This document shows positions 1 through 51,929 of a stretch of 62,379 nt of DNA, in pieces. The notes under the pieces were generated by a model. That model made no database searches and was not told the origin of the DNA. It worked only from the letters and a program-made list of their open reading frames with translations. Position 1 is the first letter of the stretch, and the number at the start of each line of letters is the position of its first letter. Origin of the DNA: Akkermansiaceae bacterium (lineage in GTDB: Bacteria > Verrucomicrobiota > Verrucomicrobiia > Verrucomicrobiales > Akkermansiaceae); NCBI GenBank assembly GCA_028822935.1, contig JAPKCM010000025.1, forward strand, positions 1-62,379. The letters are read 5' to 3'. The position numbers and the translations under genes are program-made.

Positions 1-698
1 GTGACGCAAAGCCCGCAGGTGACGCAAAGCCCGCAGGTGACGCAAAGCCCGCAGGCGCAGCAGCACCAGCAGGCGGTAACAATAGCCCTAGTGGCGACAA
101 CCGTGGTGGCGGTGGCGGATTCAACCGTGGTGGCGACAACCGCGGTGGCGGATTTAATCGTGGTGGTGGAGGACGTGGTCCTCGCCGCGAACCACCCCCA
201 GCACCTACTGATAAGGACGGAAACGAGCTTACGGAAAAGGTCGTTTTCATTAACCGCTGTTCCAAGGTGGTAAAGGGTGGACGTCGTTTCAGTTTCTCTG
301 CTCTCGTTGTCTCCGGCAATTCCAAGGGAAGTGTCGGAGTCGGATTTGGTAAGGCAAATGAAGTTGCTGAGTGTATCAAGAAGGCTTCTGGCATTGCCAG
401 TAGAAGTCTTAAAAAGGTGAATCTTAGCGGAACAACGATCCCTCACGAAATCTATGCAGAATTCGGTGGCGGGAAGGTTCTTCTTAAGCCTGCTTCTCCC
501 GGAACCGGCGTCATCGCTGGTGGTGGAGTGCGTGCAGTTTGCGAAGCAGTGGGAATCACTGATGTTCTCGCAAAGTCTCTCGGATCCAACAATCACGCGA
601 ACGTGGTGAAGGCAACTCTCAAGGCCCTTAGCGAACTCCGCACCCGCGATCAAGTCTTTGCCCTTCGCGGCAGGACTAAAAATGAGAAAGCGATCTAA
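1..698 (+). CDS. rpsE: 30S ribosomal protein S5, 5'-partial, with Gly/Arg-rich N-terminal extension
   Basis: Component of the small ribosomal subunit that helps set decoding accuracy. The frame is open from base 3, so the true start lies before the window. The conserved S5 body begins near base 231 ([19 protein letters not shown]) and runs to the stop at 696-698, with the typical motifs [21 protein letters not shown] and [12 protein letters not shown]. Ahead of it are at least 76 codons of low complexity: three DAKPAG hexapeptides (3-56), then a Gly/Arg/Asn-rich stretch with GGGFNRGG-type repeats (about 75-180) and a Pro-rich linker. Ordinary S5 proteins have no such extension. Another frame is also open over 1-273 but encodes no S5 sequence. 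The next gene is rplO, 52 bp downstream; rpmD, often found between them, is absent. Confidence 0.93.
3..56 (+). repeat. 18-bp tandem repeat, three units, inside rpsE
   Basis: Three direct copies of an 18-bp unit at 3-20, 21-38 and 39-56; the third differs only in its last base. In the rpsE frame each unit encodes Asp-Ala-Lys-Pro-Ala-Gly. The array may continue upstream of the window. The near identity suggests recent slippage, so copy number may vary between strains. Confidence 0.9.
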
Positions 699-48392: not shown

Positions 48393-48773
48393 TTACTTAC
48401 ACTGAGTGCCGTCAAGGGCAGGGTCGTATTCCGGCTTCTTGCCTTCTTCGCTCGGCTCGAAGGAAGTTCCGCAGCCGCATGAGCGAGCGGCATTTGGATT
48501 AAAAATTTTGAATCCGCGATCAGAGAGAGAATCGGTAAATTCGACCGAGCAACCGCGCAGAAAATCGAAGGAATCCGCGGCTACAATAAAACGGGTTCCT
48601 GCCAAATCGATGACTTCATCGCCTGCTTCAACCTCACCGACACGCATGGTGTAAGCTAAGCCGGCGCATCCTCCACGCTCTACTCCTAGTCGTAGGCCCG
48701 AGCCCTCCGGCGCGTCCTTGGCTTTGAGGAGCGCAATCAATTCTTCAGCAGCTTTATCGGTGACGGTGATCAT
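48393..48773 (-). CDS. HesB/IscA-type Fe-S carrier
   Basis: 126 aa. A-type carrier delivering Fe-S clusters to apoproteins. The three conserved Cys are present: ERGGCAGLAYTM and SCGCGTSF. A C-terminal tail of about 20 residues (EEGKKPEYDPALDGTQCK) extends beyond the usual end and holds an extra Cys. First gene of a minus-strand operon. Confidence 0.92.
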   Translation of the reverse strand: MITVTDKAAEELIALLKAKDAPEGSGLRLGVERGGCAGLAYTMRVGEVEAGDEVIDLAGTRFIVAADSFDFLRGCSVEFTDSLSDRGFKIFNPNAARSCGCGTSFEPSEEGKKPEYDPALDGTQCK

Positions 48774-48911: not shown

Positions 48912-50405
48912 ATGTATTTTCTAGGGGTTGAATCAGCAACACGGGCGACACGAGCAATCGTAGTCGATCTCGATTCTGCATGTGTCGTCGCATCGGCGAC
49001 CGCTCCTCATAGTTTCATCGAAGGCTTGCCCGCAGGGCACCTCGAGCAGGATCCGGCTGATTGGGTCACGGCCCTTGATCAAGCGGTGCGGGGCTGCCTG
49101 CATCAACTGGGTCCGAAGAAAGACGAGGTTGTGGCAATGGCGGTAGGTGGCCAATCGAAGGGGATGGTTATTCTCGATCAGAAAAATCAAATTATCCGCC
49201 CTGCAAAGGTGGCGGGTGATCGCTCCACCGGAAAACAAGTCGACCAATTTAATAGAGAGTTTGGAGGACCTCCGGGATTGTGTGAACTCACAGGGAATGC
49301 ACTCGATGAGGATGGGCTCGCGGCGCAAATTCTCTGGCTGAAGGAACGTGAGCCCTACAATTTTCAAAAGGCGGCCTCGGTGATGCAGCCGCGCGATTTT
49401 CTCAACTACTGGCTGACGGGAGTTCCTCGTGCTGAGATGGGCGATGCTTCCCGGACTGGGCTTCTCGATGTGAAGACGGGGAATTGGCATGAGATGATCA
49501 TCGAGTTCATTGATCCGCGCCTTTTTGAAATGCTTCTGCCACTTGGTGGTGATGCTCCCTCCTTAGGCGGGCTTCGTAAGGAAGTGCTTCAAAGCTGGGG
49601 CCTCTCGCGGGAGATCTTGGTGAGTGCTGGCAGCGGGAGTGTGATGATGAGTGCGCTGGCAAGTGGCAGTTCCCACCTGGGAACAGCAGTGCTCGAACTC
49701 GGGGTTACTGGTGCGGTGTGGGGACTCTCGGCTCAACCTCACGTTGATCCCCGAAATGAGGTGTCGATGTGGTGTGATGCAACGCATCAGTGGTTGGCTC
49801 ATTTTGAAGAAGATCAGGCCGTTGCTTCTCTGGAAATGGTGCAGGATCATTACGGCTGGAACGGGCAACAAATGGAATTAGCAGCCTCTTCTTCGGAAAT
49901 AGGAGCGGGTGGCCTCATGGCGCTTCCATTGGGACACGGGACCAAGCATCAGAGCGGGGAAGGAATGTTTTACGGGATCACCATGAGGAACTTCACGCCG
50001 AGTAATATGGCCCGTGCGACGCTGGAGGGAATCGCGGTAAGACTTGCTTATGGATATCATCGGATGAGTGAATTGGGAATCGATTTTGGGACGGTCTGCG
50101 TCACTGGACGGGGAGCGGGTAGCCAATTTTGGAGACAGCTCATTGCCGATGTCTGCGGAGTGAAAAGCTACTCGCTTAAGAATCAAGAGGGGGCGGCGCT
50201 CGGTGCAGCGATCCATGCTGCGGTGGCATATTTTCAGCAGACCGGAGAGGGTCTTAGCTTTTCGGAAATGGCAGCCTACGCCGTGATCACCGACGAGGAA
50301 AGTTGGTGCGAGCCGGACGAGGGTCGTCATCAGTTCTATCTCAATCAACTTTCTAAACAGCAGTATCTCGCCGAGACCCTCATCGGGTCAGGATTCCTCG
50401 TGTAG
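48912..50405 (+). CDS. FGGY-family carbohydrate kinase homologue, catalytic residues lost
   Basis: 497 aa, most like xylulokinase (QDPADWVTALDQAV, VAMAVGGQSKGMVILD, PRDFLNYWLTG, LEGIAVRLAYGYHRM). The phosphate-1 motif DxGT reads ESAT (GVESATRATRA). The catalytic Asp region GGGDN of XylB reads AGSGSVMMS, so the base is Ser. The adenosine motif GGG reads TGRGAGSQFWRQLIADVCG. The reading frame is intact. It is therefore probably a pseudokinase with a sugar-binding or regulatory role. ATG 48912 is chosen; upstream codons are unconserved. Confidence 0.88.
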   Translation: MYFLGVESATRATRAIVVDLDSACVVASATAPHSFIEGLPAGHLEQDPADWVTALDQAVRGCLHQLGPKKDEVVAMAVGGQSKGMVILDQKNQIIRPAKVAGDRSTGKQVDQFNREFGGPPGLCELTGNALDEDGLAAQILWLKEREPYNFQKAASVMQPRDFLNYWLTGVPRAEMGDASRTGLLDVKTGNWHEMIIEFIDPRLFEMLLPLGGDAPSLGGLRKEVLQSWGLSREILVSAGSGSVMMSALASGSSHLGTAVLELGVTGAVWGLSAQPHVDPRNEVSMWCDATHQWLAHFEEDQAVASLEMVQDHYGWNGQQMELAASSSEIGAGGLMALPLGHGTKHQSGEGMFYGITMRNFTPSNMARATLEGIAVRLAYGYHRMSELGIDFGTVCVTGRGAGSQFWRQLIADVCGVKSYSLKNQEGAALGAAIHAAVAYFQQTGEGLSFSEMAAYAVITDEESWCEPDEGRHQFYLNQLSKQQYLAETLIGSGFLV

Positions 50406-50407
50406 CG

Positions 50408-51082
50408 ATGAGCAATGATATCCGAGGGAATTGGAAAACGATCTACGGCGGAAAGCTCGCAGGTTGGCTCATCTACCTCTTGGGATTTACCTTTCGGGTA
50501 GAGGTTAAAGGGTGGCGTGATGAATTCGCCGATCCTGATCGTCAGCTCATTCACGTTTTTTGGCACAACCGGATTTGCGGGCTCCTTCCGCTTTGGACGA
50601 AACGATTTAGAACGCGGGAGACCGTCGTGTTGGCCAGTGCGAGCAAGGATGGCGCGGCCATCGAAGCTGCGGTGGGAGTTTACGGAGTCGGATCGGTGAG
50701 AGGATCGAGCAGTCGACGGGGGGCTGCTGCCTTGATCGCGCTCAAGAAGGCGGCGAAGAGTGGGAAGGATCTCATTATCACGCCCGATGGTCCTCGTGGT
50801 CCCCGGTATTCGATGCAACCAGGTGTCATTAAGCTGGCGCAAACAACAGGGCTGCCGCTTCTTCCCATCTCACTTTATTTTGAAAACTGCTGGCGTCTGA
50901 AGACTTGGGATCGCTTTGTCATTCCCAAGCCCTTCAGTAAAATGACGCTCATTTTTCGGGAACCGCTTGAGATTCCCCGTCAGCTTGGTGAAGATGAATT
51001 CGAGACCGCGCGCTTGAATTTGCAAAAGATCCTGCTCGAAGGAATCGACGACCTCCCAGAAGATCATGCCGACAATCATTGA
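50408..51082 (+). CDS. DUF374 lysophospholipid-acyltransferase-like protein
   Basis: 224 aa. N-terminal hydrophobic helix ([15 protein letters not shown]), the acyltransferase His in [29 protein letters not shown] and [24 protein letters not shown]374 proteins are related to lipid A late acyltransferases and PlsC. The stop is 17 bp inside folD, so the two are translationally coupled. Starts 2 bp after the kinase homologue. Confidence 0.88.
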
Positions 51083-51929
51083 TGGAAAAGAAGTAGCCGC
51101 CCAGGTCCTCGCCGAGTGCGCGCAGGAAATCGTTGAGCTGAAATCTCAAGGGATTACTCCCGGCCTCGCCGTCGTCTTGGTGGGAGAAGATCCCGCCTCG
51201 AGGGTTTATGTGAGTTCCAAGGTGAAGAAGTGCGCTGAGCTGGGACTTCATTCTGAAAAAATCGTTCTCTCAAAAGAGGCGACTCAGGAGGAGGTGCTCG
51301 CTGTAGTGGAACGGCTCAATCTCGATCCTGCGATCCACGGAATTTTGGTTCAATCACCACCGCCCCCTCAGATCGATGAAGAGGCGATCGTGCGGGCAAT
51401 CAATCCAGCGAAAGATGTCGACGGTTTTCATCCTGAAAATGTTGCCAAACTGGCTCTCGAAGATTCTTCCGGATTTGTGCCCTGCACTCCGGCGGGCTGC
51501 ATGCGGCTTCTTGCGGCGGCAGGCGTAGAGACATCGGGCAAAGAAGCGATCGTTGTCGGTCGTAGCATGATTGTTGGTAAGCCGATGGCGCTCCTTTTGG
51601 TGGCAAAGGGAAGTGATGCCACGGTGACGATTGCTCATTCCCGGACTAAGAACCTCGCTGAGGTCTGTCGTCGCGCGGATATCGTGGTGGCGGCGGTTGG
51701 AATCCCTAATTTCATCAAAGCTGAGCACATCAAAGACGGCGCTGTCGTGATCGATGTCGGGATCAATCGAGTGGAAGATGCTTCGCGAAAAAGCGGCTAT
51801 CGTCTGTGCGGAGATGTAGCCTTCGAGGCGGTCGCTGACAAGACGCACGCCATCACGCCTGTTCCCGGAGGGGTGGGCCCAATGACGATCGCGATGTTGA
51901 TCAAGAATACCATCAAAGCGGCCCGCTAA
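51066..51929 (+). CDS. folD: bifunctional methylenetetrahydrofolate dehydrogenase/cyclohydrolase
   Basis: Interconverts methylene-, methenyl- and formyl-tetrahydrofolate. 287 aa. Conserved residues: Tyr and Lys of [61 protein letters not shown] and the end [15 protein letters not shown]. Works in the same folate pool as purU at 61.5 kb. Start overlaps the acyltransferase stop by 17 bp. Confidence 0.96.

Follow-up and report, generated by a model that had tools for sequence, protein, structure and literature searches.

The window analysed here is a 62,379-nucleotide stretch of DNA from a bacterium of the Akkermansiaceae. On its forward strand, positions 48912-50405 hold an open reading frame that runs from an ATG to a stop codon and encodes a protein of 497 residues, opening with MYFLGVESATRATRA. 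The sequence-only reading had described the frame as intact, and indeed it contains no internal stops. Both Pfam domains of the FGGY family (PF00370/PF02782) were found above their gathering scores, FGGY_N at 9e-38 with 130.7 bits (gathering score 28.8) and FGGY_C at 3.6e-17 with 63.2 bits (gathering score 27). Divergent from this gene lies a gene for an Fe-S biosynthesis protein (PF01521, IscA-like; 48393..48773, reverse strand). A gene for a DUF374 protein (PF04028; 50408..51082, forward strand) starts 2 nt past the FGGY stop, and is overlapped by 17 nt by folD, encoding methylenetetrahydrofolate dehydrogenase/cyclohydrolase (51066..51929, forward strand). From what we know of its family, we take the DUF374 protein to be an acyltransferase. 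Between positions 48600 and 52100, a single match to a sigma-70-like promoter (50916, inside the DUF374 gene) and a single match to a terminator (50239, inside the FGGY gene) were obtained, in each case no more than in shuffled sequence.

An AlphaFold2 model of the protein, with a pLDDT of 90.8, adopts the FGGY kinase fold. The best structural match is the xylulokinase 5vm1 (Z 46.3), E. coli XylB (2itm) scores Z 44.9, and the 50 structural matches listed are FGGY kinases, for example xylulose, gluconate and glycerol kinases (Z 37.8-46.3). The motifs were read in an alignment with E. coli XylB (2itm) and 16 relatives from the same order (L014-L029), in whose orthologues all the xylulokinase motifs are present. 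DxGT is ESAT in the window protein (residues 7-10; 48930..48941, forward strand), with Asp changed to Glu, Gly to Ala and the Thr retained. GGGDN is GSGSV (residues 240-244; 49629..49643, forward strand), the catalytic Asp now being Ser243, and the adenosine motif GGG is GRG (residues 399-401; 50106..50114, forward strand). All three replacements had been called from the sequence alone and are borne out by the alignment. In addition, GQQHG has become GQSKG, WCDTST has become AGDRST, and the GERTP loop has been lost, its shortened remnant (residues 342-347; 49935..49952, forward strand) forming the only stretch of the model with a pLDDT below 50. The protein thus lacks the catalytic Asp in GGGDN and, apart from the Thr, the DxGT motif that mark a XylB xylulokinase. 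That family (TIGR01312) is nevertheless its best curated match, at 305.4 bits, below the equivalog cut-off of 380; two other degenerate members scored 361 and 339 bits, and two intact relatives (L106 and L052) 549 and 551. As modelled, the protein is folded as a kinase whose active site has been abandoned. A sequencing or frame error was rejected as the source of these changes, given the open frame and the repeated finding of losses at these motifs in other genomes.

Orthologues were collected at E <= 1e-40 from 244 genomes of the window's GTDB family, drawn evenly from a larger group and covering 16 genera. A match was found in 70 of the 244 genomes and in 8 of the 16 genera; 69 of the 70 were read, the remaining one being a fragment at a contig end. 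The catalytic Asp is absent from 61 of these 69, seven are intact xylulokinases, and one (L258) has a lone Asp within an otherwise ruined motif. An alignment of orthologues had been proposed as a check on the sequence-only reading, and it shows the motif losses recurring, with degenerate copies in 7 of the 16 sampled genera. The nearest orthologue of the window protein (G007) shares 79% identity with it. Six of the seven intact orthologues belong to one genus (g28), and the seventh, in g29, lies away from DUF374. Compared with 27 intact proteins that all keep the residues in question, the 62 degenerate ones keep the catalytic Asp once, Trp101 and Asn244 never, Asp7 six times, the His of GQQHG once and the Thr of DxGT twice. 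Glu stands in place of the first Asp (position 7) in 54/62.

In a tree of 67 proteins, all 39 degenerate rows form one clade (bootstrap/SH-aLRT 100/99), and its sister is a group of five intact xylulokinases that likewise precede DUF374. The clade was retained, at 100/98, when 107 active-site columns were removed. A wider tree with 62 degenerate rows, made by a quick method in which long outgroup branches may attract, also gave a single clade (SH-aLRT 98); the placement of the long rows L011, L133, L246 and L258 is unsure. Convergent, repeated loss of catalysis was considered and is not supported, as the tree needs one change, even without the active-site columns. Given the shared loss of Trp101, Asn244 and nearly all the catalytic Asp residues within a single clade, the loss of the catalytic residues is, on this phylogenetic reading, a shared one that is old relative to the genera carrying it. 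Orthologues keeping the Asp residues had been named beforehand as what would speak against a pseudokinase. They do exist (7/69), but fall outside the degenerate clade; they therefore date the loss rather than contradict it, and the pseudokinase reading stands. With catalytic residues lost across the orthologues of an intact gene under selection, the assignment of the window protein and its clade as pseudokinases is well supported by the sequences.

The sequence-only reading had also placed a DUF374 acyltransferase and folD close behind the gene, an arrangement that holds across the family: among the 69 family loci read, DUF374 is directly downstream of the FGGY orthologue in 66, and folD lies within 1.6 kb in 59. 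The same FGGY-DUF374-folD set was seen in 4 of the 10 intact same-order relatives whose wider context was examined (L043, L047, L049 and L052). The adjacency is older than the loss of the catalytic residues, the intact xylB having the same neighbours, and is therefore not by itself a pointer to a partner, nor proof of a functional link. In two genomes, a rhamnulokinase-like gene is found directly upstream of the pseudokinase gene (L130:4720-6276 and L131:8417-9928). These are the only second FGGY matches beside the gene among the family loci surveyed for gene order, and a tandem pairing of a dead with an active FGGY protein was discarded as an explanation, the second gene reading by its motifs as an intact rhamnulokinase-like one. 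One genome (G019), with an estimated contamination of 6%, holds two DUF374-folD loci (L082 and L084).

The genome of the window also contains a separate xylA (TIGR02630, 662 bits, cut-off 533). Next after it comes a motif-intact FGGY kinase of the human XYLB type, which matches the human xylulokinase 4bc2 at E 2.6e-110; elsewhere the genome carries a rhamnulokinase-like gene that is also a motif-intact FGGY gene. The search for active paralogues that had been suggested thus yields two candidates, predicted from their motifs. After xylA and the XYLB-type xylulokinase, a sugar isomerase/epimerase-like gene was noted (G000:C83; L002:296-1351, reverse strand), whose curated matches (IolE-like) are far under cut-off.

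Presence of the two genes across the family was scored at 1e-75 and counted by hand. The XYLB-type kinase is present in 59/62 degenerate carriers and xylA in 51/62, with no xylA match in 11/62. The XYLB-type gene also occurs in 6/7 intact carriers and in 92/174 sampled non-carriers, and any association between it and the loss is confounded by kinship. The loss would have been affordable because a separate xylA and an intact XYLB-type kinase are present, and redundancy with that kinase probably permitted it; since intact carriers and non-carriers have the gene too, having it allows the loss without forcing it or, by itself, explaining it. Three degenerate carriers have neither xylA nor the XYLB-type gene, namely G015 (65% complete), G108 (98%) and G241 (95%). 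Carriers without xylA, or without both genes, speak against a role of the pseudokinase in the xylose pathway. The EITPR loop of the XYLB-type copy was read in five genomes with an intact-type operon xylB, a sixth (G095) being judged by a full-length match. Four copies (L169, L170, L171 and L174) keep GDNP and lack about 40 residues around this loop, and the L174 gene is, in addition, broken across two frames. At L172, with an N-terminal piece at L173, the loop is retained. Reciprocal decay of the XYLB-type copy where the operon xylB is intact is possible on these readings.

Pairwise dN/dS (NG86) lies between 0.024 and 0.096 in 12 of 14 degenerate pairs (two being undefined) and between 0.041 and 0.147 in six intact pairs, values that are reliable as a low order of magnitude only, dS being saturated in several pairs. 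Such low ratios mean that the protein is still constrained; by this measure, the degenerate clade is under purifying selection. The constraint is unevenly spread. Variability was examined at 28 hand-picked motif positions of the former sugar and phosphate site. The mean variability percentile at these positions is 0.63 in the degenerate clade vs 0.10 in intact proteins, where it is low by choice of positions, and in the degenerate clade they exceed the rest of the protein in variability (Mann-Whitney p = 0.006). Positions 243, 244, 82 and 10 are highly variable (percentiles 0.82-0.88). Conversely, the windows that most gain conservation in the degenerate clade relative to intact relatives are residues 438-457 (50223..50282, forward strand), residues 475-494 (50334..50393, forward strand), a C-terminal segment that includes most of a modelled helix (470-493), and residues 115-125. 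From intact to degenerate proteins, the percentile falls from 0.81 to 0.33 for window 484-494 and from 0.90 to 0.45 for window 438-448. These windows are the top of a scan that sets a family-level degenerate set against a taxonomically broader intact one, so the contrast is suggestive of newly constrained C-terminal segments, not proof of them.

Taken at sequence level, the gene encodes a conserved pseudokinase descended from the chromosomal xylulokinase of its bacterial order. The sequences show that in one lineage of the family three residues went together, namely the catalytic Asp, the Asn beside it and the substrate-site Trp, and that the gene stayed in the FGGY-DUF374-folD set under purifying selection. 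Sugar phosphorylation would be gone, a reaction that the human-XYLB-type xylulokinase beside xylA can take over. We infer that kinase activity is absent, both because this second xylulokinase can perform the reaction and because, in SePSK, activity depends on the corresponding residues: the part of the paper available to us (PMC4880283) gives D8A, T11A and D221A as each greatly lowering it. As related bacteria keep the dead version as a conserved gene, it probably has a different, non-enzymatic job. With less certainty, the protein would serve as an FGGY scaffold without catalysis of its own, in contact with another protein and most likely touching it via the newly constrained C-terminal segments; we give this reading a probability of about 0.5. 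The scaffold would modulate a partner rather than bind one fixed sugar, the co-encoded acyltransferase or FolD being hypothetical candidates. A variable former active site together with conserved C-terminal segments speaks for such a role, structural or in protein contact, rather than for a sugar sensor or a new enzyme. According to the accessible part of PMC6148475, the lipid A acyltransferase LpxJ belongs to DUF374. In its fullest and clearly more speculative form, the proposal would make the protein a long-established FGGY pseudokinase, found in at least seven genera of one family, that is now a protein-contact regulator of the DUF374 (LpxJ-like)/FolD operon.

The sequence-only reading had suggested a sugar-binding pseudokinase or regulator. 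Its pseudokinase half is upheld by the 62-protein clade with a single catalytic Asp and by purifying selection. The sugar-binding half fares worse: the 28-position site is variable, and the xylA match is missing in 11/62 carriers. A dead kinase whose cleft still takes a ligand (sugar, sugar phosphate or nucleotide) and that signals to another protein would account for the two-domain fold retained in the model, for Asp103 (kept in 61/62) and for the Glu of GERTP (48/62), the two exceptions to the variability of the pocket, although the window protein itself is without that Glu. The summed charge at nine positions of the pocket shifts as well: it is -3 in 26/26 intact proteins and averages -1.24 over 38 degenerate rows. 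At most other pocket positions, nevertheless, variability exceeds that of the remaining protein. The idea of an anionic ligand in a basic pocket looked promising in a first set, with a basic residue at position 83 in 31/38, and was dropped because the larger set has such a residue in only 38/62. We regard such a ligand-binding regulator as unlikely.

The scaffold reading also has to be set against decay. Within the window's genus, 9 of the 27 genomes have the FGGY gene. The IscA-like gene marks the corresponding site in relatives without it, and in 12 of the 27 it adjoins DUF374 with no FGGY match between, this check of the flanks covering 21 of the 27 genomes (the 9 carriers and these 12). 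Because the flanks stand side by side without the gene in those 12, the gene is dispensable: useful in some settings, not essential. Its absence is scattered, with five parsimony changes on a tree of folD and DUF374 (26 rows), where well-supported branches make two of the five unavoidable. In G033, from another genus, a 194-aa ORF (L186:1403-1984) corresponds to window residues 1-60 joined to 384-492 by an internal in-frame deletion, and this remnant still precedes DUF374 and folD. No internal stop occurs in 69 of the 70 family matches; the exception, in G273 (L254), has an internal TAG and an N terminus outside the open frame, through either decay of the gene or faulty assembly. The scattered absences, the remnant and the stop would fit a redundant relic that is being lost, retained for the time being as the head of an operon with possibly coupled translation. 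Against this stand dN/dS values no higher than those of intact kinases and the presence of degenerate copies in 7 of the 16 genera sampled; translational coupling alone would put no constraint on amino acids. We consider this account distinctly improbable.

The same purifying selection, and the Glu shared at position 7, would also fit an active site rebuilt for another reaction, but no new conserved polar set was found among the motif positions examined, and positions 243, 244, 82 and 10 are all highly variable, which leaves a new enzyme quite doubtful. Continued kinase activity, in which Glu7 and a further residue would stand in for the usual ones, is very improbable: the modelled fold is intact and Glu is a conservative change that could still bind metal, but four residues have gone together in the clade, the Asp acting as general base (kept in 1 of 62), Trp101 and Asn244 (0 of 62 each) and the His of GQQHG (1 of 62), and the score of 305 bits falls short of the XylB cut-off.

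Pseudokinases among the protein kinases keep their fold, have lost their catalytic residues and are encoded by conserved genes, and in these respects the window protein resembles them, albeit on an unrelated fold. To our knowledge, pseudoenzymes are well studied in protein kinases and little known in bacterial sugar kinases, and we know of no bacterial FGGY pseudokinase clade that has been described. A full-text search of open-access papers found no FGGY pseudokinase family, and the words 'inactive' and 'pseudo' do not occur in the part of PMC3245297 available to us. What is new here is therefore a pseudoenzyme in a kinase family for which none was found described, pseudoenzymes as such being known.

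Among known FGGY proteins, the window protein shares with bacterial XylB (E. coli 2itm/2nlx, and 5vm1) the full-length FGGY_N and FGGY_C domains and the fold, and it nests by tree and gene order among the intact xylulokinases of its order. It differs from them in its altered catalytic Asp, DxGT, GQQHG, WCD, GERTP and GGG motifs and in its score below the equivalog cut-off. Human-type XYLB (4bc2) likewise belongs to the FGGY family, and its ancestral function is presumed common; it shares only 25% identity with the window protein, however, and the XYLB-type copy is motif-intact and lies beside xylA. SePSK and AtXK-1 are also FGGY proteins of uncertain physiological role, and both hydrolyse ATP, according to the accessible part of PMC4880283. 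By the same source, SePSK has all three key residues, whereas the window protein, judged by motif, is without two of the three.

A single operon position thus shows an intact form, a selected dead form and scattered later losses, which makes the locus a natural experiment on an enzyme turning into a non-enzyme. It also holds a warning for annotation, as loose similarity could label such genes xylulokinase, when the gene that probably encodes this enzyme is at another locus. If the proposed regulation of the operon is true, the protein would act on an operon that joins envelope lipid acylation and one-carbon metabolism, a role taken up once a second type of xylulokinase had made the enzyme redundant.
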